A stretch of 64,000 bases of DNA from Cyanidiococcus yangmingshanensis. Its lineage: Eukaryota; Rhodophyta; Bangiophyceae; Cyanidiales; Cyanidiaceae. Position 1 is the stretch's first letter, and every line of letters starts with the position of its first letter. The DNA is taken from positions 62,001 to 126,000 of the forward strand of contig VWRR01000015.1 in the NCBI GenBank assembly GCA_013995675.1, in the 5' to 3' direction. The position numbers were made by a program, and so were the translations under genes. Positions 1,990 to 61,757 of this stretch are shown piece by piece. Under the pieces are notes generated by a model. It searched no databases, was not told the DNA's origin, and worked only from the letters and a program-made list of their open reading frames with translations.

Positions 1990-2809
1990 CTAGTTATCAC
2001 TGCTCGCTTGCAGGCGTGTGAGGATCTGCAGCAGGTTCAGGAAGAGATTCAACACATCCAGATATAGCGATATGCAGGCGATAGACCAGTCATCTGGCCC
2101 CAAACGGTGAATGATCATGCTCGTGTCGAAAAGGATGTAGCCGCAGAATAACAGCGCCGATGCGACGCTCACAATGAACGAGAACGTCGGGGACAGGTGC
2201 CCTGTCCAACCCAGAAGCACATTCAGTAGCGCCGCGCCGAAGACAACCATTAGCGCCGCCCCGAGGAAGCCACCCAGAAAGCTGAAATCGCGTTGTGTCT
2301 GCCAACAGTATAGTGTCAGGGCTGTGAAAACCATTGCGGTGAGAAAGCAGGCTTCGAAAACGATGACGCCGAGACCTGACGCGGCATACGCCGCACAGAC
2401 CATCGCAACGCTCAGCGCCTCGAAGAGCGTAAAAACCACAAGAACCCGAAAGCTCCATTTGGGATGCGATCGAGCCCAAAACGACCCCGCGAGCGCTCCC
2501 AGGGCACCCAAGAAACACACCCAGATGAGCCATGGTGCGGCTGAAAGAATCCACTGGTTGAGAGCCGAACTCAACATAAACGCTCCAGAGAGCGCTGCGG
2601 TGAAACCAAGTTGCGCCGCAAGAATGGTATATACCTTGCGCAAAAAGTCCAAAGCGGATGCGCGTGACGCAGGCTGCCACCGTCATACCCACTTCAAAGT
2701 CGTCAGCTGCAGTCGCGCTTCGAAGACTCGAGGACCCACGTTTTTCTGCCGACGAGTACGTACCATACTCGCCGCTCTCGAGGTCGGCTGGCGCGTACTT
2801 GTGCTGCAT
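1990..2809 (-). CDS. Bax inhibitor-1 / lifeguard (TMBIM) membrane protein, split by one +1 shift
   Basis: TMBIM proteins are six- to seven-span membrane proteins of ER, Golgi or mitochondria that modulate calcium leak and cell death. The ATG at 2809 begins a soluble head (MQHKYAPADLESGEYGTY...) that reads to DDFEVGMTVAACVTRIR. The body, in the next frame, starts DFLRKVYTILAAQLGFTAAL, the hallmark RxxFxRKVYxIL..QL block, and continues through hydrophobic segments to GYILFDTSMIIHRLGPDDW, the conserved FDT.MI.... calcium-channel motif, and a final LYLDVLNLFLNLLQIL helix. Skipping one base within 2650-2682 (for example in TTTGGAC) joins head and body with no residues missing. No stop separates the frames at the join, so this is an indel or frameshift and not an intron. 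Confidence 0.85.
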
Positions 2810-4499
2810 GTGATGCGATTCCGAAAGACGATGTAATGATTGCTGAGCGACAGTTATGTCCGTGTCAGTGCCAGACGTTCGTGTTCGCGGTCAACGACGC
2901 AGTGCGTTTGTGCGTCTATTCCAACGCAACTCAGCGGAAACGTTATACGAGTTAACAAGGAACTGCGAGTCGTTTCGGATTGTGCGCGCACCCATGATCT
3001 CCCATTCCGCGGGCAGCAGGCAAAGCGACCATACCGCCTCTACCCGGATTCGGGTAAGTCTTGAATAGAAACAGGTGTGCTTCAGGGAAACAAAACCTAC
3101 ATGCTTGATCTGCTGAGCCAATGGAATCGTGTCATATGGTTCTGGAGCTGGTCGATAGGTGCAGCTCAGTGCTGCGATCAGACCAGAACTTTGATGTGGT
3201 TTGGAGCATTCGGGGTGCAGGAGTTGGACGTATGGAACCGAGGCTTGTCTCATGATCGACACGCAAGCACTTATTCTCTGCCCAAGAGGGTAGAAAGTTG
3301 ATCGTTTGGATGAAACATTGCTGCGGAGTCGAACATGATACGATCGTGCGTGGGACGTTCAGGTCAACGTTGATGTGCGGCATCTTGCCGGCGTCAGAGA
3401 CACCACCGTATCGATGCATTCATCCCCTCTTTTTCATATTGCCTGGATTTATTGAGAAAGCATACTCGAGCCGATGGCCATCAAAGAAGCGTTCTGGCAC
3501 GAATCGGGAAAGTAGCTGAGGCCCCTGAGTGATTTCCATTTGCTGCGTGCGAACTAGGCATCAGACTTCTGAATGACTCGTCACGTTCAACATACCCAAG
3601 CGCATACGCAAAGCGGTAAACCACTCTTTTCGTATGATCCAGACTCATTCGTGTCTTTGAGCATTCCAAAGGTTTGCTAGTTTCAAGCACGTTTGTGTTC
3701 CGCTCAGTTCTGCTTACTTGAACGACATGTTCACTGTCTCTTCAGTGTTTTCTTTCATTCTCATCAGCGGTTGTGGTTTCTCGGAACGCTGAACAAGCAC
3801 CCCAAAATCAAGCTGACCGCTGTGCCATTACTCCCTAGAGAGTCTACAAGGCCGCTTTGAGTGATTCAACAAGGTCCCGGAAAGCTGGCGACACGTGATG
3901 CCACCGACGAGGATGTGCGTCGTCGTTGCTTGCGTCCGCTCCTGCTCGGGCACGTCGGCAGCGATCGAGTCAGCTGAGGCAACCAGATGATCATGCAGCC
4001 AATCTTGGAAACGGAAAATCAACCAGCAAGCTATTCGTACGATCGCGCAGCCAATCACCTAGTTCTAAAGCCAAATAGAAAGCCGATCGGGACTTGATTG
4101 AAGGAGAAGCCATTCATTGAGCGGCCAAACCATGCTGGTGATCATTTCATCTTGGGATCAAGCCAATTATTCATGCATGTCGTCATTCGTCTTCAGAGAG
4201 GAGTCATTCAGATGTCTTTCAGCGACCCGAGCCCGCGTTTCCGGAAACGGACATGCCCGCTGACGATGATGCGCCGACACGCTGAACATGCTAAAAATCG
4301 TAGTTGACACAACGAACAGTTCGGTTCTCGACCACAGAGACAAGGGTGTGTCAAGCGTACACGTTGTGTTCAACGACCACCTCTGAGCTCTTCGGAAACT
4401 TGAACGCTCGAGCAAAAAATTGGCGGAAGAGTTCTGCGTTGATCGGTGAAAAAGGGTTTCGCTTTGGTCTTTTGCGCGGATTGCGAACGAAGCGTGGAT
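2810..4499. other. Long intergenic stretch, no recognised gene
   Basis: About 1.7 kb between the divergent lifeguard and ubiquilin genes. It contains only short frames (up to ~123 codons on either strand) with no recognisable motif. It should hold both promoters, but I cannot point to a specific element. Confidence 0.55.
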
Positions 4500-6213
4500 A
4501 TGGAGGGCGACCACACCAAGTCATCGGGAGACAAGTCGGTCACGGCTGGCGGGGCTGATCCTTGCGACTTTGAGCTTCACTTCAAAAGCAGCACTGGAAG
4601 CAAGTTCTCACTGCCTGTTCCTGACCTGGAAGAACAAGTGGGAGCGTTAAAGAGCCGGCTTGCTGAACCGAGCGGCTTCGCACCAGAGACCATGCGGGTC
4701 ATCTACAAAGGACGCGTTTTGAAGGACAGTGAGACTTTGCGTGATCTACAGGACAAGTATGGGCTCGAGAGTGGACACACCATGCACTTGGTTCGCGGCG
4801 TGCGACCTGGGACAGCAGCGAATCCAAACAGTGGCACACACGCCGCCGCGGCGCCTCCGAGCACGTCGCCAGCAGCGTCTGGTGTACCCGGTGCAGACGG
4901 AGTGACTGACGCGAGCGCCGGATCAGTACCCACTGGATCGAGCTTCGCGGCAGGAGGAGGCACGACTCAAACGGCGTCATCTGCTGCACCGCCAAATACT
5001 GCCTTTAATATGTTCGGACAGACTGGCACAATCGGCTGGAATGCAGCAGCAGGTACAGCAGGCACGGCTACTGGTGGCGCCTTTGGAGATCCTGACGGTG
5101 CCGGTGCTGCGGCTGGGCTGAATCCTGGTGGATCAGCGACGATGCAGCGGCTGCAGCAGCAGATGCAGCAGCAGTTACTGGCGAATCCCGGAGCCATGCA
5201 GGAGATCCTTAACAGCCCCCTGATGGAATCGATGGCGGAGAATCCGGAACTGATGCGGACGCTGATGATGACAAATCCCCAGATTCGAGAAATGATCAAC
5301 CAGAATCCCGAAGTGGGACATATCCTGAACGACCCAGCAGTGCTTCGACAAACGATGCAGTTGATGCGCAACCCGCGGTTAATGCAGGAGATGATGCGTA
5401 CCAGTGATCGAGCCATGGCCAATATCGAATCGATGCCTGGCGGTTTTGATGCACTTCGGCGTTTATATACCGACATACAGGGATCCCTGGACCCGAATGC
5501 AGCTTTAGCCACTGGTGCTGCAGCGGGAGCGCGTCCCGGAACACCAAATACAAATCCCTCTAGCGAAACGACCAGTGGACGGGTGAGCGAAGCGTTTCCG
5601 CTACCATCAACCTGGGCTGCAGGTCCCCAAACAGGTGCTGGTGATTCGAATCAGCACAACTGGATGAACTCTGAGCTTTCCGAGGAAGCTGCGATTCGTG
5701 CTACTCGAGCCATTTTGGACAATCCTGAACTGTTTCGCCTTACCCAGGAGCAGATGGTTGCTTCGGATACTTTTCTATTAGCGAATCCGATGATTTCCGC
5801 CATGGCCGCCATGAACCCACAGATGATGCAAGCACTCCAAGACATACAGTTCCGTCGCCATCTGTTCACACGCGAGTTCTTTGAATCAACATTGGCGATG
5901 CAGGAGGCCCAGCTGCGCTTTCGACGGGCGATTCACAACGCACTGCGACAGAGCGGCCTATGACCCAGCCATTGCAGCGTCACCGAGCCCTCCCACTGGT
6001 CCTGGACTAGGTGGCTCTGGCGCTGCAGCAGGTGCAAGTTTTGCTGATCCAACCGCTCATATGACGCGCGAGCAACTTGAACAGCACTTTGCGACGCAAC
6101 TACAGCAGATGCGAGAGATGGGCTTTTTCGATACGGACGCCTGTATCTCTGCCTTACGTGCCACTGGTGGAAACGTAGCTGCTGCATTGGATCGCCTCTT
6201 GAACAACTCCTAA
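4500..6213 (+). CDS. UBQLN: Ubiquilin / Dsk2 proteasome shuttle factor, one +1 shift before the UBA
   Basis: Ubiquilins carry polyubiquitinated clients to the proteasome. The ATG at 4500 is the first in the frame. Near residues 20-100 is a ubiquitin-like domain ([14 protein letters not shown] ... [14 protein letters not shown] ..[13 protein letters not shown]). A 100-residue Ala/Gly/Thr linker follows, then a first STI1 region with Met/Asn/Pro repeats ([32 protein letters not shown]), and a second STI1 region (LDNPELFRL ... [11 protein letters not shown]). The C-terminal UBA ([18 protein letters not shown]...[17 protein letters not shown]) is in the next frame. The first frame stops at 5961-5963 and the second is open from before 5881, so one base must be skipped between them. 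Domain order and ~570-residue length are typical. Confidence 0.92.
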
Positions 6214-7280
6214 GTCAAACTTGGCTGATTAGCCAGATTCGAAAACCATGATGGGAGGCAGTTGTTGCATCGACGTTTTGTTTTTGCGTCAAGCGATCGA
6301 ACGTGCATCAGCGACCAGACATTTCGAGTGTGTGTGTATGTGCAGGTCTAGCGTCGAACTGCTGCAACGTACAGGAAGAGCGCGTGCGACGGAACGGCAT
6401 CTTGGTTGCGCGATCATTGTGGAGGATGCGTTTTTTTCTGGACTCGGATCAAAGTGTTGAGACGGAGCCGGATATTGTGCTGATGCCTCCGCAGCGGGCG
6501 TTGGCGGCACGCCATGAAAGACCGGATAAACCCCGAGCACGTGTCCCAACTTGGTCTCGCAGACGGTGGCAATTCCATAGAATCGCTCTCGCGTCGTTAT
6601 CATGGGCCTGTTCGCATAGAGCTCGATCCGGAGGGTTCCTCTTCGGCTTGCCTAAAAAGGATTCTGAATTTACGGGAATCGACCTGGTTTGCGCACAGAC
6701 CATCCATAGGCTCTGTGGAAGAGACTCAACGGGAACGTGGATCCAGGTGCGCGCGGGCTACAAACCTGAGCGCGAGACAGAGCTCCATGGAGACCTTGGC
6801 GGATCCAGTCGAGTTTGGCGAATGCGCTCTCACCCATCCCCGACGACCACGTGTGCAAGAGACGTCTGACAGCGGTCCGAACGAGTTTCGTTGGAACGTC
6901 TCGTCTATGTTCTGTAACGACCCCATTAAATTCACTGAAACGCCACTCAGAGTGAGCGTAAATGCCTAAACGACGACTCGTGGTTGATGATATCGTCGGG
7001 TTCGCTCCTGTTCGTGCTGCTCACATGTTGAATGCTGCACTTGCAGAGACAATCGTCGCATCCGTTTTCACGGGGGACAACCCGCTTTTCCTAACGCAGA
7101 CATGATACGGATCGTTTGCACCATGGCGATCGCAAACCTAGACGCCCATCCGCGACCATGTCGTGTGCCTGTGTGCTCGCGAGCACTAGGCACTGGAGAG
7201 CAACTGCGCGAAAATCCTCTCTCGGTGACAGATTGGGGTCTTTGGTTTTCAAGGCCTCGAGCGTTCGTCGCAGAGTCAGA
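6214..7280. other. Region of overlapping open frames, no assigned gene
   Basis: Frames of 80-190 codons overlap on both strands (for example plus-strand 6303-6869 and 6514-6969, and minus-strand 6726-6935, 6449-6703 and 6289-6603). None shows a family motif I recognise. Both strands could be strung together by +1 steps, so frame alone cannot decide. A real small gene here is possible but unsupported. Confidence 0.45.
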
Positions 7281-12667: not shown

Positions 12668-13829
12668 TTATGCCGACATTCTTGTTCCAGAACTGTGTGA
12701 AGAAACTTCGCTGGTAAACTCGGCCATTTCTTCGGGTAGCGTTGCCTCGAAGCGCGCTGGTAAATGAAAACGTTCTTGCAAATAAAGGGGCAGTTCGAGT
12801 TCGGCAGCGTGGAGCATCATGCGGGAAAATCGGTCGTCCTCATCCGGCAGGGTTGGATAAGTCGCGTCTCCAATGATACCGTGACCGATACCCCATAAGT
12901 GAACGCGCAACTGGTGCCGCCGCCCCGTCTCAGGCCAGAGCTCCACCAACGTTGCTGGCAGATCCCGAAAACTTCCCACCATAATCACGCGACCATACGT
13001 AACGGCTTGGTGAGCTTTTTTCAAAACAGTTCCTGGTAAAGGCTGCAACGACCGGCACGGCTCTAGATGCACGAAACTTTCGTGTTTCAGAGGGTCATCG
13101 CGCAGCGATCTGAAAGATGAGCTGCCTGAGCTGGCAACACCTCTGCCCGCTGAGGCTTCGTTCGAACCGCTGCGCAAGCCGTCTTCCACAACCGTGTATT
13201 CAGCCGCGTCGGCTGGGCGCTTCTCCGGCACGACCTGATCTGGATTCATGTCGCAAGTCGGATCCTGGTTGAGCGTCATTGGCGGCATCAGCCGAATCCG
13301 AAAATCATCCACGTATTCCAAGAGAGGGGCATCCATGATGAAGCGCTGATTCTTTTCATCGAGCCGCAGATGCCCGTGAACGAGAGCGAGATATCGTTTT
13401 CGCACTTGGCGTTTCCGAAACGCAATGTTGAACTGCGCAGTTGGTCTCTTTTGTAGGCCAAGAAGCAGTACACCAGAGGTCGCATAGTCAAGCTGGTGAA
13501 TCATGCGGACCATTGGTGGCGGAAGCGGCAGACGAGCATGTCCAACGCGGTGCCAGCCCGTTGGTCGTACCTGTTCCGCGAGTGCCGAACCAGGGTCGCT
13601 AATCTGTTTCTGAGCGAGTGCCTCTACCGTTATCGGGAAACAGTCACCTGTCCATGCGCATATCTGCTGGTTTGTTGACCACAAGCAGGTGCTCAGACGC
13701 GTAAAGAACTGGGAGCTGACAACAGCGACTGGGGTGCCGTCCTCGCTCTCGACACGTCGGTGTCTGAGGCGTTTCCAATATAGACGCACGCGGTCGCAAA
13801 ACCTGCGTCACAGCGCTAGTGCGCCACAT
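12668..13829 (-). CDS. RluA-family pseudouridine synthase, one +1 shift
   Basis: RluA-type enzymes isomerise uridines in rRNA or tRNA. From the ATG at 13829 a presequence-like head leads to PVLYASEHLLVVNKPADMRMD, the family's N-terminal strand. That frame stops at TGA a codon later (near 13632-13634). The next frame continues immediately with DCFPITVEALAQ and then MIHQLDYATSGVLLLGLQ, which holds the catalytic Asp (codon near 13489), KRYLALVHGHL, VTYGRVIMVG, and the C-terminal block ELWPETGRRHQLRVHLWGIG..IIGDATY. Joining needs one base skipped within the GACAGGTGACTG stretch and leaves no gap in the family alignment (MDGD or MDSD). A ~100-residue Ser/Glu/Asp insertion sits mid-domain. Substrate unknown. 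Confidence 0.88.
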
Positions 13830-14967
13830 GAACCTTCCAGTGCACACCAGTGAGCGAGAGCGCCTCAGAGAAGAATACTTGCGTATCGAGTTTGCGCCAC
13901 GCTGACCCAAGCGATCAGACAGAGGCGCCGTTGCTATCGAATCATTAGCCGACCACGAGAACCGTTCGCCAGCGCCCCCGAAGGACAACGTGCATGGAAC
14001 CGACCACAAAATTCGATGGCCAAACCGCATGCCCTGATGCGAATCCACCAAAAGAAATCCAGTGAGACCATAGGCATCGAGTGCGGAACCGCGCTCGAAT
14101 AGACACCTCATTCATTCGCCGCGCCAGGGCCAATGACCACCTGATAGCGAGATGCCCAAAGAATCCAAGGAGCGATCTCTCCGAGTGGCAAATAGACCAC
14201 ATTCCATCTCGAATGAAACCCCCGTCCACATCTTGGTGATGACAAACTCGAGCCGAAGCGCCAACGGGTGATCCGATGGATGTCTTGAATTCTGTATTCT
14301 TGTGCGTTTCGCAGTGCTCAAACTTGTCAAAGGCAAGCAGGCAGGTAGCCAGCCACGAATCAGAGAGACAACGCCATCGAACCTTGATTCCCTAGACTGG
14401 AATGCTCCTTGTGTCAGTACCAACGACTTGATAACCAATGGAGAAGTTGCAGCTGTGCTAGCCCTATCGAATGCTAACGTCAAGCCTACTTTTTGATCGT
14501 TTCCGAGTGGCCGGCTCTCGCTCCGGATTCGAAATCCATCTCGCTGCAATGCCGCGTCGACATCTCGCGGCGGTTTGGGGAGCACGCACCCGCACCTGAT
14601 CGAATCGAGTCCCAGACCGTTCACGCAAACACGCACCTTGCGTCCATGCGGCCTCATCGATGGCCATCGAGCACGCGGATGGTGATCGCGCTCACCAGTT
14701 CCGTGCACGCACCCATCCGCGCACGGATCCGAGTCCAGCGCTCGTTTCGTGACCGCGCGAGGGGATCGTTTCACGCGACTGGCGATCGCCAGGTAGCGGA
14801 TCGAAGATGCGCGGGAAGCAGTGCTGTTTGCGCGGGAACTGACGGGACGCCGATGCGACCCTGCGTGTGGATGCGTGTACGCACGTAGCTGGATCCCGTC
14901 TTCCGGCACGCTTACGCTACTGCGTAGTTTGTAGACGTGCGTATTGCCCCGAAAAAGAGCTTTGTCA
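13830..14967. other. Intergenic, long unsupported minus-strand frame
   Basis: A 265-codon open frame lies on the minus strand (14112-14909), and another continues toward the RluA gene (to 13830). They are rich in Arg/Ser/Pro and have no recognised domain. I treat them as chance frames in GC-rich DNA. The MCM2 promoter should lie near 14900-14967. Confidence 0.45.
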
Positions 14968-18235: not shown

Positions 18236-18316
18236 ATCAATGTCCGTCTGTTCAAAAAATAAACGCAAGATGAACGTACCACCAGTTTCGGTTACGTGAT
18301 ATCACGATCGATATCG

Positions 18317-18841: not shown

Positions 18842-19224
18842 TCCTAGGTAAGGATAAAGGGCATCGTCGACCGCTTACGAGGACGCTGCAGACGGGTCGC
18901 CCAACTGCAGCCAGACTGCCACGACCGCCGCGGCGGAATAAACCATGCGATCGGAGACCTATCGATCACACTCCTCCGTCTGGTTGCGTAGGGTTTGTCG
19001 TTGGAACATTATTTTCCAGTTCATGTTTCGGTCTGTTTGATTCCTTCTGATCAGAGGGTGTTATTGGTAATTTAGCGTGAATCAAACAACGGTTCGAGAA
19101 GAACGCCAAGAAGTCTGGTCGGTAGAGCGCTTTCCAAGCACGAGCACGCGCTCGTCGGGCCCTTCACGAGACGGATCGAGACTTTGTCGAGCTGTACGAG
19201 GCGCTCAAACGACGTACTAGAACC

Positions 19225-19999
19225 ATGTTCGCACTGAACGTGGTTGGTTACAGCCTAACTCGACGTTCGTTCGCAGCCACTTTAGGTCGAGTTGGTGTTT
19301 TGACTGTTCCGTCTGCCCTGCGTAGAACGCGATGCAGCTCGTCGATGAGTGCAGACGCCCATGGTGAGCTGGCTATTGTTCGTGAACAGGTCGCCTATCA
19401 GCGCTATGCTACGGTGCTGTTGCGCACGGTTCGTTACCCGGACGGTCGTAGCGTTACCTATGATATTATTGGTCAACCAGCGGTGCAGTGCGCATCGGTG
19501 CTTGTCTTCCCTTTTGATACCCGCAGTCGAAAATGCTACATGATTCGAGAGTACTGTCCTGGGCCCAATCGAGTGCTGTACGGTTTTCCGGCCGGCATGG
19601 TTGAGGCCAAACACACCTCGATGGAGGCAGCGGCCTTGGCCGAGCTCTCCGAAGAGGCCCACCTCCGTTGCACGGAACTCATTGACTTGAGCGCTCAGGG
19701 GGCAGTCTGGGAGCCGGTATCGTCCAGAGAATCCACCGAGCGATGGTACCAGCGAGGTGCTCCGCGGTTTCGCTGCAGACAAATACTCCCGAAACATCTG
19801 TAAGATGTACTTAGCGTTGGATCCCGAACTGGACAAGAGTCCGGGAAAAATGGATGCCGAGGAGCTGATTGAACAAGTGGGCGCTGTCTCGATCGCGCAG
19901 CTCGAAGCGTGGCTCTGGAATGGCCAGATGACAATGCCCCATATGTTACTAGCGATGTGTGCCCTGAGTCACCTCCGGCGCAGTGGAATGTTGGTCTGA
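19225..19999 (+). CDS. Nudix hydrolase (ADP-sugar/NDP-sugar diphosphatase type), one +1 shift
   Basis: The ATG at 19225 starts a presequence-like head (MFALNVVGYSLTRRSFAATL), which suggests mitochondrial or plastid import. A beta domain follows, then the Nudix box GFPAGMVEAKHTSMEAAALAELSEEAHL (positions ~125-155), which keeps the E..xEE metal ligands in slightly degenerate form. Downstream, the family block LRGFAADKYSRNICKMYLALDPELD is in the next frame, which opens just after 19690. The first frame runs on without similarity to TAA at 19801-19803. A skipped base between about 19692 and 19765, for example in the GGGGG at 19698-19702, restores a continuous protein of ~257 residues. The closest plant comparison I know is the NUDT14 ADP-sugar pyrophosphatase group. 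Confidence 0.8.
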
Positions 20000-20947
20000 T
20001 CGTCGCGAACATGCTACCCGGCCCTCGGAGAGAAACGCACAAACCGAGGGAAGGTATCTGGCATCAAGAAAGCAGACGATTATTTTGAGTAGCTATTGAC
20101 GAGGGACAGAATCTTTGGTGCGAGAGAACGAATCGAGTCTGATGAGGGGCGTATCAGAGAGCCTTGTCGGTAACATGGTCCGTGGCGTCGCAGGAGTGTT
20201 CTCCCGGATCGACGAGAGAGCGTTTCGATCCGCATATAGATATCGGTGTTGCGATCATTGCGAGCTCCATTCCGTGGTGAACCTTGTCATGGGCGCCACA
20301 GGCATCAGCCCGAATGCTGTTTCTGTCCGCAGGGGTCGCTTTTGATCCGCATTGGCCTCATCGGACGCTATCGTCATGGAAAGCACGTGAAGCTCGTGCC
20401 TCCATACGAGTCCATCGGCGTGCGCCCTCGTGCCGGTTGCGTTTGATGTCCTTGTCCCATGAATGCTAGCGATCGTTATTGCGGAGCCTGTGCCAACAGC
20501 ATGGTTGGGTTGCTGCATCGAGATCTTCAGCTCGAGCGGATAGTGGTGATTGCAGGCGACTGGCAACTGTTTATTCGTTCCAACAGGATATACTCTAGTC
20601 ATAAATGCGTTTGCCACGAGGAGCGTGCATGCAACGGCGAACGAAACGACAGGACTCCTTGGGCGAGACCCACAAGTTCCCAGCCGAGTCGCGTAGAGAG
20701 CCTCGTCCGTTTCAGGGCCCCGATTATCTCCGTCCTCGGTCCAAGCTCTGTTCTGAAGACCAAGCGTTATGTCACCGAGCCACGGACCAGGACCAGTCTA
20801 TGGATATGCCTCCCAGCACGTTCAAAGATCGCCCATACGGATCAAGGGCGCGGCTAGGTTCCCTGTCCCTGGCCCATTTTCAATAGGTCCCCTCTCAAGG
20901 CAGATGTGTTTCTGGACAGCGTACCGTCTGGGCGACTGTTGTCACCG
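20000..20947. other. Intergenic, no recognised gene
   Basis: Several 60-130 codon frames overlap on both strands (for example 20459-20857 plus, 20255-20617 minus). Some can be chained by +1 steps, but no motif supports any of them. Confidence 0.45.
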
Positions 20948-22936: not shown

Positions 22937-25562
<2,626 letters not shown>

Positions 25563-34703: not shown

Positions 34704-36284
34704 ATGGGGATCTGCTGTGCCGCAGAAACCTCAAGGGCTTCTCCTGGACGAGATGGTACGCGATACGCTATGCAGTCGTTGGCATTGTCCCGGAGCGGAC
34801 GATCACGGTATCAGATGGACCACAAGCTGGCTGTAAATATATCCAAAGATCCAATTCAGGAGGTTCAGGAGCAGTATGGTGTTCCTGGGAGGCTTACCTT
34901 CTTTCGGGGACGAGGTGGACTCGAGATGGTGCTCCTACAGACCGCTGCAGGAGCGTGTGCAGAGGTCAGCTTCTTTGGTGCCCAGGTGCTGTCCTGGCAA
35001 CCACCTCGCACAGCCAACTCGCTCCTCTTTGTATCCAGAGAGGCGATATTTGATCGGAGACGAGCAGTGCGTGGTGGCATCCCCGTGTGCTGGCCCCAGT
35101 TCAGCAAGTATGGACCGCTCGTTCAACAGCACGGCTACGCTCGCAATACGAACTGGGAACTCGTCTACGCAGATGGTGACCACCCAGATGGACCGCTAGT
35201 GGTCTTCGAGCTACCAACGCTATCGCCGTCTGTGATTGCAAAGCTTTTGGTACCATCACCGGTTGCGGCACCGACTGGAGCAGCGACCGCCAGCTCGACG
35301 ACCTGGACGACTCGAGTGTTCCCGCGAGCACGACCCCAGTCGCCTGGGCACCAAGCGATGTCAAGTGAGCATGGCGCCTCTGCTGATTGGAATCAGGAGA
35401 ATGAGAAGCGCTCCTCAGGTGTTCCTGATCAATGCGATATCTTAGCGAACACGTCGGGCATGGCGAGTGCAGCGGGACGCTGCACGACGATAGCATCCGT
35501 CCCGGAGGAGTCCACTGAGACGACCGCTGCAGTGACCCTGACACCCCGCACCACGAGTCCAGTCTTTGAGAGCGAGCTCCAACACGCGCAAGTGCGTCTC
35601 ATGGTTCAACTCGGTGCAGAGCGTGGTGATTTGCGGCTTCGTCTTGAGGTATGGAATCGAAGCCCCTCCGATGCCGATGTACTAGAGTTCACGACTGCAT
35701 TGCACGCGTACCTGCGGGTCGATGCGGTGACAGAAATACGAATAACGGGTCTCAGTGGGTGTGAATTCATTGATCAGACACGCCAGCAGCGTATCGAGGT
35801 GGACCAGGAGCCATCGTTGACACTCCAAGGAGGCGAGGTAGATCGCATCTACCGACGAAAACCACAGACCAGTGACTTGATCCAGGTCGAACGGGTGAAC
35901 GCCCAACAGGGCACCATTCGTATTGAGGCATCGACAGATGACTTTCCCGAGCTAGTGATCTGGAATCCGGGTCCACAGAAGAGTCACGAGCTTGTCGATC
36001 TCGATGATCAGGAATGGATGTTCATGGCATGTGTCGAGCCAGCGGTGATCATTGAACCGGTGCGACTGCATCGAGATGAGCGCTGGTGTGGTCATGTGAC
36101 GTTTACCTATGTCGCAGCTGCTAAGACATCAGCCGCGACCAAGCGACTGAGTATGTGTGCACTCCACGATCGTGGTGGCGGCTGGTGCACTTGCGGGTAC
36201 TGCTCTCGCCCGAGTCCATCGATACGATGCTCCATGTCCGTAGCGATGCAGAGGATGATCATATCCTCAGTGAGGTGCGCTTGA
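34704..36284 (+). CDS. Glucose-6-phosphate 1-epimerase (hexose-6-phosphate mutarotase)
   Basis: The enzyme interconverts the anomers of hexose 6-phosphates. From the ATG at 34704 come ~526 residues, with GRGGLEMVLLQTAAGACAEVSFFGAQVLSW, LLFVSREAIFDRRRAVRGGIPVCWPQF, and QQHGYARNTNWEL, the mutarotase core with the phosphate-binding Arg and the catalytic His region. After a ~110-residue Thr/Ser/Ala/Arg-rich insertion, the fold resumes: VLEFTTALHAYLRVDAVTEIRITGLSG, DRIYRRK, VIWNPGPQKSHELVDLDDQEW, and the catalytic Glu segment MACVEPAVIIEPVRL. The insertion is not found in the bacterial or yeast enzymes I know. The last ~60 residues have no similarity, and all three frames are open there, so the true end is uncertain. 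Confidence 0.86.
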   Translation: MGICCAAETSRASPGRDGTRYAMQSLALSRSGRSRYQMDHKLAVNISKDPIQEVQEQYGVPGRLTFFRGRGGLEMVLLQTAAGACAEVSFFGAQVLSWQPPRTANSLLFVSREAIFDRRRAVRGGIPVCWPQFSKYGPLVQQHGYARNTNWELVYADGDHPDGPLVVFELPTLSPSVIAKLLVPSPVAAPTGAATASSTTWTTRVFPRARPQSPGHQAMSSEHGASADWNQENEKRSSGVPDQCDILANTSGMASAAGRCTTIASVPEESTETTAAVTLTPRTTSPVFESELQHAQVRLMVQLGAERGDLRLRLEVWNRSPSDADVLEFTTALHAYLRVDAVTEIRITGLSGCEFIDQTRQQRIEVDQEPSLTLQGGEVDRIYRRKPQTSDLIQVERVNAQQGTIRIEASTDDFPELVIWNPGPQKSHELVDLDDQEWMFMACVEPAVIIEPVRLHRDERWCGHVTFTYVAAAKTSAATKRLSMCALHDRGGGWCTCGYCSRPSPSIRCSMSVAMQRMIISSVRCA

Positions 36285-39427: not shown

Positions 39428-40874
39428 GCCTCATGAGTCGTGAAGAGCGTGTCTCGGTTCTGATAGCGTTTGCAACCGTAGCAAGATCATGTTCGAGCAG
39501 CACAGGCCATGTTGTTGGACGTTCACGACATTCATGAATCCGTGGTGTGAGCCTCGGTCCGCAACAGACGACGCCCCTAATGTGTACATGACGAGTGAGC
39601 TGCTTCTTTTTTCACTTATCGTGGTGGTTTCTGTCGTGGCTGAACTGCAAACGAACCCAAACAAGACCTATCTTGAGCAGACGTGTTCGCCTGACGCCTC
39701 TTTATGAATAGAAAAAGGCAGAATCTCACGCCAGACACGAGTCTGCTTGATGACATGGAGCTCCTATCCATCATCTGGATGCGGGATGATTTGCGAACCC
39801 ATGCTTGCATGAGGCAAGTTTGCGTGGATACCTGGTGATTGTCAAATCATGCTCATTGATTGGGTATTTTTCATTTCCACTGCTATAAGAAAGGCCAAAA
39901 GGCGTCTTGGATCACTTGCTTTCGACCAGCATCGCTCAAGTAGATGCAACGCTGCTGTCGCTGGCGCTGCATCATGCCAGGGAAGCAGCGAGCGTCATTG
40001 AGGTTCTGGGCTGATGTCGGGTCCAGGTCATGTATCTCTTCCGGCAAACTCGGAGCATGGCTGGACGATGGACGTGGTCTCGCATTCCATAGAATCACAT
40101 GGGGCAGCATCTGAGACAACGAATGGAATCATCGATCCAATGTTGTACTGGAATCATGTTCAAAGGCAGACAAGTTCATGAGGAATTGGACGCCGAGCTG
40201 TTCTTGTTGGGTCAAAGAACAACCTCACATGGGTGATTCTTGACTCTGGATCATTGATACGATTCGACAGGCATCGATTCTCTAATGAGCACTGTCATAC
40301 CGGGATGTCTCCGATCGAAGGAGCATGATCGTATCATCGGTTGGAGTGAATACTTGAGAAACGCAATGAATCCTTCGGTGATTCCCATCCTTGGCTGAAA
40401 GGGCACCACTATAAAGATGTTTCGAATGGTACGAATACAGGTCGCCAAGCATACACATGCTGGACACAGTGAAGTGGCTTCGATGACGACACTGCTTGCC
40501 CTTTTCGCTCATCAAGATCCGGGTTTGGGAATCGATCGCGATGCCTCTCGAGTGAGAAGTACTCTCGATTCCGACGCGAAACCCGATGATGCTTTTCGCA
40601 GTCTCTGAAGCGTCATACGCCACATGAGAGACAGAGAGAGAGGGAACACCAAAGTTTTCGCGCGCGTCAGATCCTTCGTCTGCGATCAAAAAGAGAAAGT
40701 ATTTTCTGAACCTGCAAACCTCAGGTTTCGCCTGAGCAGTCACAAGAGGCCCATGTGCAATTGCCGCACCATCGATAGAGGTCCAGCGTGAAGAGCGAAC
40801 CAACCCAGTCTGAGATACGCTCTGATGGTTGTTGCCGCCAATCCACATGGGCACTCCAGTGCGGCAAAAAGCGT
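39428..40874. other. Intergenic, no recognised gene
   Basis: 1.4 kb between converging genes. A 215-codon minus-strand frame (40282-40929) overlaps the 3' end of the mannosyltransferase-like gene and shows no motif. Confidence 0.5.
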
Positions 40875-42803
40875 CTACAGAGCCGTAACTGGGGCCAGTT
40901 CGCTGCGATTCGGGTACGAGTAGGCGCAACGACCAGAATAACCTTTCCTGAATGCGTTATGGACGCACTTGCCGTAGTACGAGTCAATGTCGCTTGTTAT
41001 CCTATCGCTCAGCGCGTCATCCGCTTCCACATAGTGTCGAAGATAAGCAAGCGTTGGCGAGCGTAGATGATGAACTTGTGTAGTGCGTAACGGTCCAGCA
41101 AAGAGCGCTCGCGGAGGCATGTCTGTGTGAGCATAGACAAGATGCGCTGGATATATTCCCTGCTGATGTAGATAATATGGTACGCGAGCGAGACCAGCTT
41201 CTCGAAAACCTATAAAGAATATCACCCAGAAACTGTGAAAGAAAACAAAGAGTATCCAGAGCGCCCTTCGGAGCCATTGATTGGACCAGCGTTGGCCGTG
41301 ATGCCAGGCTCATCATCATAAGCGAGATGCAGATCGGTAAAAGCGAAGGCCAGTCTCGTTCCATACCCATGCTGTAGCATGCGAAACCAACAGATGTCAC
41401 TAGCAGCAACGATTCTGACCAGATCTGTTCCGCTGATACTCCAGAGACTCGTTCTGAGGCCATCAAAGGACCGGATGTGCGCATCGATAGCGTCTTTCGT
41501 CTCAGAGCACGGGATCGTTTGCGATGCAGAGACCCCGCACGGAGCACCCGACTCAGGATAACGCCGAGAAGATTGAGCCCAGATGGACCGAGCATCCACG
41601 GCAATGTTGTCCAGGCAAAATCCAGTCGGTATTGATAGTAAAGCTGGCTCAACCAGAAATCTTTGGTCAGAACCAGTCCCAAGCGCGTCACCTTCAAGTT
41701 CTTTGCAGCTTGGAACAGCGAAGCAACGAGTCTCGTGCTGTACTCTGACCCTTGCACAGCAGTGTCCACGACGATAGCAATAGCGTGGAGCACTAGACAC
41801 GAGCCGTACAGCGCCACTGAGTGATCGATTCATGTGCCTTGCGCTCATTTGCTGCTCCGCGTCACCGAAATGCGCATGATATCGTGCCCAGAGCAGCAAC
41901 AAGGGAAACGTGTAGAGGGCGCTGGCTGGTCGAACGCAACAGGCCACAAAGACGAAGCCTAGGGCTAGCCTACCGAGTCGTTGCTGATGCGTTCGCGTGG
42001 CCTCCGAAGGTTGCTGCAATCCCCTGGCAATCGTCGTGGCGTAGCCAATCCATACGAGCAAAGCGAGCACAGCCTAAGGCCTCGATGGCTTCCCTGCTCG
42101 GACGCATGAACAACACTGTGCAAGGCCATGACCAGACTGTGCCCCAGTAGAGGCAATAGAGCTTCTCCGCCGCCGCCTCGTCATCGTCGCCGTCCACGAA
42201 TCGCATCCAGAGAACGTATTCGAAAAGCGCGAGCAACGGCTGCATGAAACATAACGACGGCACCAGGTGCAGCACTTGAGGACTCGGCCAGTGAGCGACA
42301 CGCCTCATCGTCACACCCGACCAACGTGCTAGACCCGCAACCAGCGACCAAGGCACGCCATAGAGCACTGTCGCCAAGAGCACGGCGCTTCCGCGCTCAA
42401 GCGCCGTCGTCTCCAAATCATTTCCATGGACAGAGAGAATGCCTTTCATTCGAGCCGCTGCCGCATCGATAAGCGTCTGGTCAAGCGCAGCGTCCGCTGA
42501 GCTCCTCGGTTCCGTTGACAGTGCCAGCTCGACTGCTGGTCGTCGGCGTAAGGTCATCGGCACCCACCCCGGCGCTCGAAGTACTCCTCGTGCAACCCAT
42601 TCAGAACCATCACGGATCATGTACCCATCGTACGGGTTGCCTGTGCCCAGTGACAGGAGGAGTCGCCCCAACCAGACCAGCCAGAGGTACGATCGCCACT
42701 TTCGTCGCCAAGGTCTCGTCGCTGGTCTGGTGAGGACCCCGCTTTCGTCCACCGCCGAGTGTGCAGACGACCTCGTCGCTGTTGCTCGACGCCATCGAAG
42801 CAT
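40875..42803 (-). CDS. GPI-anchor mannosyltransferase-like (GT22, PIG-Z/SMP3 type), three +1 shifts
   Basis: The protein is hydrophobic and multi-span. Segment one (ATG 42803) reads to MRPSREAIEALG. Segment two, next frame, continues VLALLVWIGYATTIARGL and LALGFVFVACCVRPASALYTFPLLLLW, a GT22-like LLRPT block. Segment three reads VALYGSCLVLHAIAIVVDTA ... YQYRLDFAWTTLPWMLG. Segment four reads ALWILFVFFHSFWVIFFIGF, YYLHQQGIYPAHLVYAHTDMPPRALF, resembling the HQ.G..P ... TYMPPR.L C-terminus of PIG-Z/SMP3. Joins lie near 42076-42082, 41826-41838 and 41285-41310. Each needs one base skipped and, at the first, the new frame opens within two codons of the join. The family's HPDE loop in the first lumenal segment is not recognisable. 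Total ~640 residues. Confidence 0.55.
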
Positions 42804-43717: not shown

Positions 43718-46700
43718 ATGGTTCGTGGCGACGAATCTGGGGACGCACAGGCGATCGAACAAACGTCGACCGCGACGCCCTTGTCGACCCGTACAGCGGG
43801 TGCGGAAGCCGGCGGCTACGCAAAACTCTACCTGAAAGTGTTTGACCCTGATACCGATCAGGTGGCAACCAAAGAGTTTCTTGTACAGAAACTTGAGGTC
43901 TCTCTGGGGCGAAGTGTTTCGGCGGATCAAACACAGGCTTTTGCGGCGGCTGCCGAAGGCGTTGATCTCGGGGCGGGATTCTCGAACAAGCTCTCTCGGA
44001 GACATGCGACGATCCAATGGAATCAGCAGCAGCAACGATTCGAGGTATATTGTAGTGGAAAAAATGGAGTTTTGGTTGTCCATGCGGATACGTTTCGACA
44101 CATGCGACCTGGAGATGAGCCGGAGCCGCTCGACTCTTACTCCACCATCATGCTCGGAGACTGTCTCGTGGTACTACTTTTGCCCAAAGCGACACGAGTG
44201 CTCCCCGGAGCGTCATTATCCCCTGCTCGAGGTCGCCATGCCTTTCGCCCCGCACAGGGTCGTCCGTGGATGCAGCGCGCAACTTTGCTTCGTCATGGTA
44301 GTGCAGTAACGGCCCGCGACTGGCATCGTGTCCGAAGCAAATGGAGCAAAATCGATCAAGAGACATTGCTGCGTGGTCTCATGCGTTATGGCTATGGTCG
44401 CTGGAAAGAGATTGTGCAGCATGCGGAAAGTGGTCGATTGGATCGGAAACCGCTCGACGAGATGATCATGATGGCCCGCCGAATGGTGATCATGGCAGCA
44501 CTACACGTCACTGGTGCTGAGTATCGTGCCATGCTTCGTATTCTGAGTACAACCGGTGAGACCCGCTCATCGACTGCATCGATGGTTCCGATGCCTCGAC
44601 AGATCGAGCAGGAAGTGACCATGGTGGCAGCCGAAATGGCCGAGGCGAAACTGGAGAAACGCAAGTATGTTCGGTGGGCTCGACGTTTTCGTCTGCCTTC
44701 ATCGCATTGAGCGTCTCGTTCGAAACGCGAATGTGATGCAACAGATCGAACAGGAGAAGCTGGAGATTCCTGGCAAGCTACCATCAGAACGATGGGGTGG
44801 TATCGATGATGCCGATCTGCTCCGAGGTGTGTACAGCCTCGGCTTTGGAGACTTTAATCGATTCTGGGAGGAGCCGACCCTGCATTTTCGCGAACGGTTT
44901 CAACCGCCACAGGGTATGTCATCCAATCCGCCTGACGATGGAGCGCTCCCAGAGCAAGTCGCCACCAGAGCAGACGACTTGGACGAAGATGAGGATGTTG
45001 ATGAGCCTGCAATGAGCAAGACAACATTGCGATCGAATACATTCCAAGCTTGATGAAGAGCCGACTCCAGTCGGCGCTGCAGCTGCGATGACGCACAGCC
45101 TCGACACCGTAACGATGACCAAGGAGACGAGCGTGAAGCCCGGAACGGTCGCCTGCACCGTGGACAGCGGAGACGGGTACGCAAACGACGGACGTTGCAG
45201 GCGTAACACTTCAAGGACCGCCTCCAGCATCCACCGCAGCGGATGACGATCGACCTCCGTTTCCCAGTTCAGTGGAACTTATCCGGCGTCTCCGGATCCT
45301 GGTCAATGCAGCTGCGCGACTCATCGAGTCCCGAAAGAAGGATGAGCCTCTGACAAGCGCGTTGGCTGCATTCGCTGCAGAATGGCCTCGAACGATCGAC
45401 GAAGCATCGTCAAGCGCACGTCAGCATGACTCGAAACGTTGGAACACATCACGAACTGCTGAGCAGCGAGCGCTGCTAGCATCGAGGCTCGCTCCCAAGG
45501 TCAACACTCCGAGCAAGGATGATCCCTCGCGCATCGAATGGGCTCGATATCGACTGGAGAAGGCGCAGCGGTTCACGCGCAAACAGGCGATGGAGTTTGA
45601 ACGTTCTCTCGTGAATCACGGCCTGGACTATAACCCGAATGAGCGACCAGACCAACCCGAAGGTGTTGTTCACGACTGGGTGCGCTTTGTGCATCATTGC
45701 GCATACGCTCAATACAAGCTACCAGATGCGTTAGAGGAGGCCTATATTGAACTCGTTCGGGAGTGTTATCGCGTTCTGGCTTCAGCATCGGTCGAGTTGC
45801 CGCATCAGGCCACTGGTGACCCGAATGCCAGCGAAGAACCCGAGGATGAGCAGGAGCAGGATGCTGCAAACGAGACTCCACCAAGAGCAGCGGCGGGTCG
45901 CTCGCCAAACCCCTACGCTTCGGTCAGTCCCGAGTCGAGTATCGATCCAGAGATGTTGGAGAAGGCACGCTCGTTCGCACCATCGGCGCTCTTCCGAGAC
46001 TTGGATCGAAAACGAGCCCGAAAAGCACTTACTCGACTGCATTTGTTTCGGGTGCTCCGCGTTTACGTGCTCGCTGCACCCGAAAAGTCGCTGGCTGAGT
46101 TGGTACGACAACCGATGCCCCCTTCACTAGCATCATCATCATCGACGGGTGTTGTCAAGTGACTTGCCACCTTGGTGGCGAGCGGTTCACGACCGCGCGC
46201 TCCTCTACGGTATCGACCGACATGGCCTTGGCCTTGGAGCATTCGAACGAATCGCTCAGGACCACGAACTTGGATTTCCACAGTCCATCGAGACGTACTG
46301 CGCAACGCGACAGCTCGATGGTGCAACCGTGTCGCGACTACAACTCGGATTCCCGCGTGTTCATGTGGCTTTACGACGAGCTCGAGCAGTCATAGACTCG
46401 GTTTGTGCGACCATGCAGGTGCCGCCGCTGCCAACAGAGAGCAGTCTGTATGTGGACGAGGCTCGGAGGGCGGCCCTCGCGCGAGCACGACAACTTAGCA
46501 TAGAGGCCAACTGGATGGAGCGACTCGTGCATCAATATCTGGCTGAGAACGAAGCACGAGCGGGTTTGACACCGACGCTGAACTCCAATTTGGAGTCCAT
46601 GCGGCCCCTGCAATCGATATCTTCACTGGTTGGAGGCAGTGAATCAGCGTTGGACTCGGAATGGCCCACGGATGAGCAGCAGACGAGCAGCGCACGTCAG

Positions 46701-47632
46701 CCTCGCAAGCACTTGTCCACTGAGGTGACTCGAACGACGGTCGATGTCCAACGTCGTCATCCACTGGTGCGTTCAAAACGTCCGCCGACACGTTTTTGAG
46801 CAACTGCGTGCCCAAGGATACATCGCTCAGGGTCTTGCTAGCGGATCGGCCGAGGTGTTGCCGACGCAACCCGTTGATGTAGGCAATGGTCTGGTGCTGC
46901 TATCGCTGGGTGCATTTCCATCCGCAACGGCTGACCGAGTTCGTCTCTATCGGAATGAGGGATACCTGTTACCGCCTGGTTTTCACTCTGTTCGTCAGTT
47001 GAGCGCCTCAGGGCATTGGTACGAGACTCGAATAGAGACCGCTTCGTCGTCGAGTCCGAACACCACCAGCAATGGGCCTGTGTATCGTGTGCAACAGGTA
47101 GAGTTCGTTTTTCCTGAACAAGACAAGCCCGCCGAATGTCTTGTTCCTGTTGCAGACGGGTTTGCGAAATCGGGGCCCAACCTGAACGAACTTTGGATTC
47201 AGGTCATGAACAGTGAAGCGGAGACGGGTCTCGCTCCAGGCACAGCCTCCTTTGTGACCCTGGTGAGTGGTTTCGAGCGAGCCGGACTAGGCGACCCCTT
47301 GTACAACGCTGTTTACGAAACTTGCCGAATGCGCATGCCTATCTTGTGGATGCGGAAGCATCGACGGACGATTTCCCTACACCACAACCGCAGCAGCAAG
47401 CAAGGACAAGGCTCTGAATGGAGCGACGCGACGACCCGTAACACTGAAACAGATGGACATGAGGTTGCTGGACGAGCAGCAGCAGCAGCAGCAGTGTCTG
47501 GTGTTTCTAAGCGGCTCATTGGCCGCGTCGTCGTCGTTTCCACCCAGCGCCGAGTCTCCAAGGAACGAGCCCGAAAGCAGACCATCCTTCGAGGCCAATG
47601 ATCTGGTCGAGAATCGTGCTCCTGATCCCTAG
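43718..47632 (+). CDS. FHA - SANT/SLIDE-like - FYRN/FYRC chromatin protein, five to six +1 shifts
   Basis: Segment one (43718-44710) has an FHA-like domain: VSLGRSV, FSNKLSRRHATIQW, FEVYCSGKNGVLV, IMLGDCLVVLLLP. A SANT-like helix set follows: WSKIDQETLLRGLMRYGYGRWKEIVQ. Segment two (to 45053) has the SLIDE-like LLRGVYSLGFGDFNRFWEEP and a DEDEDVDE tract. A linker then changes frame twice (45012-45245). Segment three (to 46162) has ARYRLEKAQRFTRKQAMEFERSLVNHG. Segment four (to 46799) has LPPWWRAVHDRALLYGIDRHGLG, like the CHD6-9 C-terminal repeats. Segment five has an FYRN block (EGYLLPPGFHSVRQL, HWYETRIE, VYRVQQVEFVF) and an FYRC-like end. A final frame with a polyQ tract ends at TAG 47630-47632; the alternative frame stops at 47601. 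Domain calls are moderate. No helicase core is present. Confidence 0.68.
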
Positions 47633-55560: not shown

Positions 55561-56699
55561 GCTGTCTTGAGCTCCGACAAACCGCGGAGCGCAGCGAGTG
55601 CGTCCCTGAAGCAACGGTTCGCGCGCACAGCTCTGGCTTGAGACACGAACGCCCTTCGACACCTCCCGTGCACGCTGCAACGCCGAGTGACCAGACAAGC
55701 GGGACAACGCTCTGAATACCCAATCACGCGTTTCAAGACCGACAATCTTACTCGTCTAGACGATCACACCCACAATAACCGACAACAAGCTTCGAGTAAC
55801 ACAGTTTCCGACCCCGTAAAAGCGCACGTCAGGGCCACAGAGACGCTCACCACGTCAGCTCGATAGGCGCGTCGCACGAGACGCTCCCAGGTACTGCAAC
55901 CTACTGTTGCTACCGTCGTTGCAACCGTAACCGTTGCACGGGCAGCTCCTCGAATGCCTCGAATCAAGCCAAACCCGTCTAGGGACTGCGCCACCCAGCA
56001 CGACACCGATCGCGTTGGCTTACGAGACACCGTGCCAGAAACGCGTCTAGTCACGGCTGCGTACAGCGGCAGACGCATCGCGCGCCCCTGATCGAGAGAA
56101 GCGCGCATGGGCCGCGCGACGTGACGACGAGGCGCCTCCGTCGCTGCCGCTGCCACCACCGTCGCGGACGATGTGGACCGATATGGGCAAGTTTTTGGAT
56201 CGCTGGCACCTGGTGTCTGGATTGGCCATGCTTGTCCGTGCTCGCGTCGAACGTCGATTCGAATCGGAGGATCACAGAGACTGGACTTTTTGGCACATCC
56301 GTGGATATGCATGCACCAGGAGCCGAACTGCTGGATCCTGGAAGAAAATGTATCTTTTGGTTTAGGATTGTCTATCGACGGGGAGGCCCTCGAGGGTGTC
56401 GGCGGACCGCCCCGGCCGTCGTCCCAACGACTGCGTCGCGCTCAGCGTGAGCGTTGTCCGCTGGACCCGTGCAACGCAGTCGACGGTGTCTTGTCGGATA
56501 GGCTGCAGTGGCAACGGGCACTGGAACACCTCGGTTGTCATCGAATTGGAACCGGTTTCGCGGAGAATTGAAGGCTTTGAAGAGAACGAGGCTACAGTGA
56601 CGTCTCCGGAGAAGACAAGGGCAACTTGTAGACCAGCCATCCTTTAATTCTGCGAAGGAAGCTGTACGGATTTTCTATAAAGGAGCACTCGTGGGTACC
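55561..56699. other. Divergent intergenic region
   Basis: 1.1 kb between PP2A-A and the plastid-targeted gene. A 182-codon minus-strand frame (55764-56312) and overlapping plus-strand frames (to 132 codons) lack motifs. Confidence 0.5.
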
Positions 56700-58062
56700 A
56701 TGTTCATTGGCACGAACGTTATCGCCGTGAGTGTGCACGCGCTCGGGTTACGTCGACGAGCGGCGCAACGGGTGGCTGCACGCGACGCCTCCGCACGGTC
56801 GAGGACGCCGCCAAGCCCCGCGCTGCATGCTTGGAGGCACCCGTCGAGGCTGCCGTTCGGCGCATGCAGAGCCGGGCGGTCGCTACGAATGATGACCGAG
56901 GTGCCACCTATTCAGCCGTGTCGAGAGGATGTCCTCTTAGGACAACTTGTTTTCATGAATCCGGAGCTTTTACCCAAGTTTATTGAAGAAAATTTGGAAG
57001 AATTCGATGCTTCTTTCTACGAATACTTGCAACAGAAAATAGACAAGTCGACTGATCTGGAGGAACGCGTCACCCTGAATACACTCAAAGACGCCATCAC
57101 GGATCTGATGAATCAGCTATTGCGGAAACACGCAACAGAGATGAAGGACGCCAACCCAAAAGATGCAGAGGCCGTCTCCGAGGCACAGTCACAACGTCAG
57201 CATGAGGAGATGTACCGAAACCTGGTCCAACATGCGGATGATCCCGAGCGGCTGCAGGTGGCGGTCTCTGCGAATTATGATCGCTTCACAGCAGATTTTT
57301 TGAACTACGTCTTCGGGAAAGCACACTCGGAACAGGCGAATTCACCGGCCGTGGCCAGAGTCTCCCAAGCCATCAACGATGAGATGAAGTCACGTATGGA
57401 AAAAGCGGCTCAGCGCTTGACGGAGGTATTGCGAGGAGGATCTCCGAACGAGATGACCAAGAAAATGCGTGAGATTGGATCGGCAGGTGGTATTGATGAA
57501 GCGTTTATGCTCCTGGTAGCGGCAAACACCGAGAGAGCCAAGAAAGAGGGCGCCAATGTGCAGGTGCTCCAGATTCTCGAGCAACTGCGTGAGCAGGCAT
57601 CACGAATCATCGACGAAGCCGTGAAGGACAAGGAATTGCGGCTTGTGCGTGCCCTCTTGCGTACCGAGGACCCGGAGAAGCGACGCCAACTGCTCTTTGC
57701 AGCCTTTCTCTCCAAAAGATCGCGTGTTCTTGCCTTCGGGAGCGGAACCCGATACCGAGATGGAGATCAATGGGAAGCGGTTTCTGGAAATTATCAAAGA
57801 GCTCATCGAAAAGTATGGATCCATCGATCCGAAGTTGGTTTCGCGCTGTCGCGAGATTGGTGATCAGGCCGAGGAGGTTGCTCGAGAGCTCCTCGAGCTC
57901 ATCGGCAAGGATCCGCGCGAACTTCAGAACGAGGCGTGGATGCGGAGCGTGTCAGTCTTTGAGCTCGAGCGAATGGAAATTCAAGCTGAAATGGAGGGTC
58001 GCAAAATGCCCTGGCAAGAGCGCCCACCGGGTTTTGACGAACAAGGGCGCCGCCATTTGTGA
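56700..58062 (+). CDS. Plastid-targeted conserved unknown, helical, one +1 shift
   Basis: From ATG 56700 a ~60-residue Arg/Ala/Ser-rich presequence (VHALGLRRRAAQRVAARDAS...) precedes an acidic, strongly helical protein: LLGQLVFMNPELLPKFIEEN, EERVTLNTLKDAITDLMNQLL, SRMEKAAQRLTEVLRG, LLVAANTERAKKEGANVQVL. Frame one carries on to TGA at 57861-57863, but similarity to coding sequence switches near 57708-57722: LLFAAF, then SPKDRVFLPSG, INGKRFLEIIKELIEKYG, RCREIGDQAEEVARELLEL in the next frame. One base skipped in TTTCTCTCCAAAAGATC joins them. The fold recalls an uncharacterised plastid-lineage family. I cannot name a function. Confidence 0.65.
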
Positions 58063-59889: not shown

Positions 59890-61757
59890 ATGAAGTTGAA
59901 ACGATCGCGTCAACGCCTGGAACCAGGCCAGACGACTCTGAACAGGTCTGCCCAAGTCAAGCCTGTCGGGAGCGTGTCCTGCCCAGCGTGTGGAGAGCGT
60001 ATTCCCGTCGCGAGCGTCAGCTTTCATAACCTTTACGACTGCAGTGAACGCATCCCAGGAACAAATCTAAAAAGAACTGAGCCTGACCTGGCGAGTTCAA
60101 CCCTACGAAATGATCAACAGCAGGCGAGGTCTGTTGCCGCTGGGACATCCCCAGAGGGTACGCGTCAATGAGTCCTTTCCGAAACCGACCCGACACTGCG
60201 AACGGCCAGCGGCGACACAACCAGCTGAACCACCATCCATAGCATCAACGTCAGAGGCAAGTGGCTTCGCAGAGGCAGACAAGCGCCCTTCACTTGAGCC
60301 GAAACAGAACGCCTTTATCATCCTCATGACACCGCAGATATATCTCGAGTGCTACTGGACATTGCGCCGGATACCCGACCCTGCTCAGGTCGATGGGGTC
60401 GCCGACTCCCGTTTTCAATGTGATGTGGTGTTTGCAGGCGAGCCAGCTGCTCGGACGTTGCTCGAAGAACCGCACTGGCACCGACTGGGTCGTTCACGGT
60501 TACCGTACGCTCTTTGGCGACCCGATGATGCACGTCAGCAGGTCTCGGACTTGAACAAAATTCGAACAGAAGTTGTCTGGATGGCACATGAGTCTCTCTC
60601 TAGATCAACGTTTTATGAGTCACTCGCCGAACGACGAGGCACACAAGAGCCTCGTCTGTCGCGCTCTTTGCTGCTCTCGGCGTTGCAGAAGAGTATTCGA
60701 CGGGGTTACCGACAACAGGTGGTACATCTCTCGCGGTATCTGGTTGATCACTACGGCTTGGGTACACTGGCACGACGACTGCTGGTCATCACTGTGGAGG
60801 ACTGCATCGTGCATCCCGCCATGCCAATCTTGGCCTGGTACATGGGTGCAACAAGCAAGGCCTATCGACCGACCGTCGCTGACGTGGACGCAATCCTTCA
60901 GTACGCAGCCGAGATAAGCGCTGTTCCTGTGCGCGACCACGTGTTGACAAAGCGCTATGAAAGCGTAGAGGCTTTTCATCGTGACTGGCTGTGCTATGAA
61001 CACGCGTTCAAGGCGACATTGTCGGCAGCGGCGCGTTCTCTGGTGGCCGCTATGCTGTTACGAGCGCTTTACGGGGGCATGCTCGGTGACCAGCTCATGT
61101 TACGTGACTACGCCCTGGAGTGGTTGCAACGACTGGTGCCATCCGAGAACGATCTACCACCGCGGTCCCAGGAGGGATCGCTGGCGACACGACAGGTCCC
61201 ATCCGCATCGAAAGCGTTCGTGCCTCGAAGAGACTGCTCGCGTCTGGTACAAGACGCCTGCAGAGGATCCACCATCGCCGTGGTTGACTTTTGTGGAATG
61301 GCTCTACGAAAGGGTGCGAAGTCAGTTGTCACACGAGGGGATTCGGGTAGAATCGGACCAGCCGCTGACGATCGCTGACGTGCCCACAGCAGCACTCGGT
61401 CCGTCCTGCGGTCTTCCATCACCGACGCTTGAGCGAGCTCGTCATAGTCCCTACTGGCGGCGAATCTATCGCGTATTACATGAATATGATCCAGAGAGGG
61501 CCCCCGAACACACTTGGACATCGCTGCTTTGGCACCTACGAGGGAAGCTGAACATTCGACCCTGTTGGTCGGTTGCTTTGGCGTCTGCTTTGCAGAGTAC
61601 GGATATCACGTGCATACGGCTCGAGGAGTTATGTGGAAAGATCGAGCCTTCATATGCGGATGAGCGACAGCGAGTCTGCTGGCAGCAGCTGGCTCCTCAG
61701 GTGGAGGCGCTCTCTGAGCGGATCCTACATAGGCGCTTTTTCGAGCCCTTGTCTTGA
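59890..61757 (+). CDS. UBZ-type zinc-finger protein with clamp-loader-like helical region, two +1 shifts
   Basis: Segment one (ATG 59890) holds CPACGERIPVASVSFHNLYDC, a C-x2-C-x11-H-x4-C finger fitting the UBZ4/Rad18-type ubiquitin-binding finger. Its frame ends at TGA 60169-60171. The next frame (open by 60110) has IYLECYWTLRRIPDP and LLLSALQKSIRRGYRQQVVHL, RRLLVITVEDCIVHPAM. The ALQKSIRRG...RRL....EDC pattern recalls the C-terminal helical collar of RarA/clamp-loader-like proteins. The third frame continues ETARVWYKT, WLTFVEWLYERVRSQL and a helical end at 61757. A DNA-damage-tolerance role is an inference from the finger only. The gene converges on the VTT gene 13 bases away. Confidence 0.55.

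Follow-up and report, generated by a model that had tools for sequence, protein, structure and literature searches.

Two described systems come close to the pattern reported here. In Euplotes, +1 shifts occur where the first frame meets its stop codon. Long-read assemblies keep residual indel errors, which likewise take the form of single-base indels that break intact genes, with one sign in excess and across contigs, and to which gene callers likewise answer with split genes or false introns. The window analysed here (64,000 nucleotides; C7:62001-126000, on a contig of 514,145 bp) belongs to an assembly of the red alga Cyanidiococcus yangmingshanensis comprising 12,072,675 bases in 20 contigs, whose proteins carry the tag F1559_. 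Its genes resemble those of Euplotes in their frequent within-gene +1 changes. Unlike the shifts of Euplotes, those seen here are not linked to stops, are mixed with -1 changes and are absent from another strain, 8.1.23 F7, in the two genes compared. Judged from the assembled DNA and the proteins of relatives, the split genes are almost certainly intact, and the extra bases would be sequencing or consensus errors of this assembly.

Proteins tagged CCYA should belong to the F7 assembly, given their shared prefix; the F7 report uses CCYA as the abbreviation for that strain (PMC9812998). The same report describes PacBio data with correction by Illumina reads and 36 introns in 4,832 genes; it gives the values 12.0 and 8.8 Mbp in reverse order with respect to its own Table 1, and the table is followed here (PMC9812998). 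Strain NIES-4659 is reported to have 4,884 genes, of which 34 carry a single intron and one carries two (PMC13353863). Between F1559 and F7, about 1.5% of the residues differ in the FHA and PIG-Z-like proteins, so these are not one clone. The accession listed for the species in PMC9832785 is GCA_013995675.1. The literature searched does not name the sequencing platform behind the F1559 assembly. Among the papers listed by a search, which is not exhaustive for absence, no title or first part of an abstract dealt with frameshifting in Cyanidiales.

The argument turns on two adjoining genes of the window, FHA and PIG-Z-like, each with an F7 orthologue (Table 1). In a frameshift-aware alignment, the FHA gene is identical to the F7 protein P0001 (1302 aa) at 1284 of 1301 residues with zero in-frame gaps. 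The PIG-Z-like gene, none of whose four pieces has a Pfam match, aligns to P0005 (692 aa) with 681 of 692 residues identical, again with zero in-frame gaps. Both F7 proteins are full length and together span 12 frame changes (11 +1 and one -1), and continuity in an independent assembly was thus found for two of the two genes with an F7 protein (P0001, P0005). The single -1, in the FHA gene, is also given by the more distant relatives P0002 and P0003 and is not given by P0004; the alignments of all three end before 47400. The F7 comparison covers these two genes, and ubiquilin, RluA, PRMT1, Nudix, lifeguard and the 57-kb gene lie outside it. For the UBZ-type gene no F7 protein was among the 5 search matches. 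It is identical to a relative, P0009, at 562 of 617 residues; measured against P0010 and P0011, its +1 places differ by as much as about 80 nt. In all three genes, other lineages have proteins that run continuously across the joins (P0002 and P0003 for FHA, P0007 and P0008 for PIG-Z-like, P0009-P0011 for UBZ).

Table 1. Split genes of the window. Positions are those of the window; in the FHA gene the exact base of a frame change can shift within short runs.
Gene	Position	Strand	Frame changes	Remarks
Lifeguard (Bax1-I)	1990..2890	-	+1, two frames; 590-nt frame overlap	Pfam PF01027 in second frame
Ubiquilin	4443..6213	+	+1 between ubiquitin/UBQLN part and UBA domain; 83-nt overlap	Parts by Pfam
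RluA-type pseudouridine synthase	12668..14111	-	+1 near 13645	Pfam PF00849 in second frame
Nudix	19126..20042	+	+1	Pfam PF00293 in first frame; end of second piece approximate
PRMT1-type methyltransferase	24401..25562	+	+1 within 17-nt overlap	Pfam PF22528 in second frame
PIG-Z-like	40724..42803	-	Four +1, near 42074, 41818, 41304, 40979	Orthologue of CCYA_CCYA16G4081; annotated here as F1559_000823; name from initial annotation
FHA/HTH-domain	43718..47629	+	Eight: seven +1, near 44696, 45048, 45139, 46148, 46782, 47400, 47509; one -1, near 47299	Orthologue of CCYA_CCYA16G4082
Helical-repeat-like (57 kb)	56601..58062	+	+1; 239-nt overlap	Frame-switch model
UBZ-type	59902..61754	+	Two +1, near 60160 and 61235	Name from initial annotation

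The initial annotation of the window had proposed that all of its split genes change frame by +1 and none by -1. Fifteen joins, picked by eye from that annotation and from six-frame translations, were re-read (lifeguard, ubiquilin, RluA, PRMT1, Nudix, five in FHA, the 57-kb gene, one in UBZ and three in PIG-Z-like) and all 15 are +1 in the reading direction; EBP2, MCM2 and a tentative extra FYR join lie outside this confirmed set. The rule fails at the -1 that P0001 places in the FHA gene. The five FHA/FYR and three PIG-Z-like changes of that annotation hold as +1, and the F7 alignments extend them: two +1 (near 47400 and 47509) and the -1 had been missed in the first gene, and the second has four +1 by P0005. 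In the UBZ gene, the alignment to P0009 adds a +1 near 60160 to the one re-read. The 57-kb gene has a weak match to Cse1 (Pfam E = 3e-4, below the curated cut-off). At 907-1279 of the window, about four tandem copies of a unit some 100 bp long were seen by eye.

The three genes aligned to relatives sum to 13 +1 and one -1 changes in 7.83 kb, about 1.8 per kb, which is not an average rate as these genes were picked for their many joins. The ratio of 13 : 1 departs from equality (p = 0.0018). Neighbouring pieces of genes from six Pfam families were then paired across the assembly: among 105 pairs, 75 share a frame, 26 are related by +1 and four by -1 (26 : 4, p = 6e-5), with the +1 pairs on 12 contigs. 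This count used 172 of 278 listed matches, chosen by eye for having a neighbour that shares their contig and strand (PF00118 16/16, PF00069 30/80, PF00133 14/16, PF00176 7/18, PF00270 4/38, PF00153 101/101); the seventh family, PF07690, has nine matches, none with a neighbour (0/9). Pairs more than 1500 bp apart were excluded, and those with wide gaps (up to 824 bp) may contain several indels or an intron; a net -1 may equal two +1. A CCT-family chaperonin gene (G000:C1:208051-209635) lies in four pieces, with joins of +1, +1 and -1. The assembly-wide bias and that of the three genes do not differ (Fisher p = 1.0, at low power), and the +1 bias is a property of the whole assembly. Both signs are present at both scales, with four -1 among the 30 shifted pairs. 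The proposal that the bias exceeds chance is borne out by both counts.

An unsupervised frame-switch model with equal cost in both directions, run on 256 kb of C7, shows the same bias; it misses most events and is too weak for counting them. With a penalty of -10, its loosest threshold gave nine +1 and one -1, and the one following gave 7 : 0. At a penalty of -14 a single switch remains (+1, outside the window), therefore the sensitivity of the model is low. Six of the +1 and the one -1 at the loosest setting fall inside the window, a quarter of the sequence, and the window may be richer in frame changes than its flanks. The -1 of the model, at 36191/36192 in an aldose-epimerase gene, has a short, weak second segment (score 5.9). 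At its start, contig C7 carries a subtelomeric-looking array (C7:1-10289; L002, L003) whose self-matches are 90-96% alike and offset by about 200 bp.

A strong +1 bias is what genuine +1 ribosomal frameshifting of the Euplotes kind, with many shifts in every 10 kb, would produce. In several joins the first frame also stops soon after the shift. Of 14 first frames, 12 have TGA as their stop, one TAA and one TAG, where about half would be expected to have TGA by chance, on a rough estimate from the codon table. This TGA excess is the only result that points to a stop-linked mechanism, and the abundance of GAN codons accounts for part of it. F7, which is the same species, nevertheless needs no shift in FHA and PIG-Z-like, which argues against the extra base being part of the organism's gene. 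Where the F7 proteins place the shifts, the first-frame stop follows at no fixed distance, some 3 to 600 nt downstream (about 3, 11, 12, 15 and 105 nt in FHA; about 105 to 600 nt in PIG-Z-like), and not at the stop itself as in Euplotes. Skipping one base per stop had given smooth joins in the FHA gene; the F7 protein put the shifts elsewhere, and a shift at the stop codon was rejected. The 11 F7-placed +1 sites share no common slippery word by eye, a -1 belongs to the set, and the two lifeguard frames overlap at length (Table 1). Ribosomal frameshifting is accordingly an exceedingly improbable explanation. In RluA, PRMT1 and ubiquilin, which lie beyond the F7 comparison, the stop of the first frame coincides with the frame change of the conserved residues or follows it closely. 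That a minority of such joins are real +1 sites hidden among errors is, in our estimate, exceedingly improbable.

Removal of bases at the RNA level, or very small introns, would also restore the frames, and the depositors' annotation takes the latter form. Their model of the PIG-Z-like gene, F1559_000823 (P0006), agrees with the window at 637 of 638 residues but jumps over parts of it: it skips 64, 46, 37 and 22 nt as "introns" at the four joins, each length being 1 modulo 3. A spliceosomal intron would be absent from the protein and from its orthologues; the F7 protein retains the residues that the F1559 model drops. FHA and PIG-Z-like alone would need 12 introns, set against the few dozen reported per genome. 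The reports on F7 (PMC9812998) and NIES-4659 (PMC13353863) describe very few introns in either strain. With 36 introns in all, the F7 gene models therefore cannot conceal the shifts as introns. Removing one base, moreover, cannot yield a -1. We consider this explanation scarcely credible. The initial annotation had named frameshifting or RNA-level base removal as candidates; the few F7 introns, the variable distance to the stop and the -1 in the set speak against both.

The extra bases might instead be true insertions in the DNA of this strain, reflecting widespread pseudogenes or strain polymorphism. The divergence from F7 in two proteins would allow for some true differences, as would the DNA differences of 1-2% that PMC13353863 gives for cyanidiophycean strains. 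Core functions are among the broken genes, however (PRMT1, ubiquilin, the CCT-family gene on C1), residues are conserved outside the joins, and the 12 frame changes come without any in-frame indel. Each of the 12 in FHA and PIG-Z-like involves one base, never a multiple of three. True indels under selection would favour multiples of three, and the 12 of 12 single-base changes therefore favour error. True insertions are very unlikely as a general cause.

Near-identical stretches on contig C11 offer a case, counted in favour of error, of one frame with and without an extra base. Two copies of a kinase gene (L022:2-2986 and L023:1-2986, that is C11:151001-153985 and C11:234815-237800) are 98.96% identical over 2,986 bp; what separates them is 30 substitutions and one inserted base. 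In the copy without the extra base the frame stays open for at least 1013 codons of the stretch examined (1090 in another listing), in the other for 673. The pair could be true copies, one of them genuinely broken. A second pair of about 3 kb on C11 (L024:1573-4637 and L025:1-3065) is also 99% identical; one of the two pairs is direct and the other inverted, and they may be either recent duplications or haplotypes joined in one contig.

We therefore favour errors of this assembly as the best reading, on the full-length F7 proteins across 12 changes, the occurrence of both signs and the recurrence of the bias on other contigs. Errors biased to insertion would make nearly all frame changes +1, and a deletion now and then would give a -1. 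The cause would thus be sequencing or consensus error rather than true strain difference, and we hold with high confidence that the bias in direction is real but technical. A one-sided insertion error of the assembly had been among the first candidates, and it gains support here from the F7 proteins and from the bias on many contigs, with the amendment that some changes are -1. Some platforms do not usually show a one-sided bias, which was counted against this reading. Runs of four or more equal bases near the joins of PRMT1, lifeguard and the 57-kb gene had suggested homopolymer errors; among the 11 F7-placed insertions, read by eye, eight can be placed in runs of two or three equal bases, three cannot, and none (0/11) lies in a run of at least four, and homopolymer errors were rejected as their source. 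In this the insertions are unlike the long-read homopolymer pattern.

For the biology of C. yangmingshanensis, the finding is useful mainly as a warning on this assembly. Conclusions based on its gene models, with their split genes, small introns and missing domains, would be wrong in many places; the public protein F1559_000823 is a case in point, as parts of its F7 orthologue are missing from it. The F7 or NIES-4659 assemblies are preferable for genes of this species. Frameshifting, if true, would have made this alga the second massive case beside Euplotes; the evidence speaks against it.
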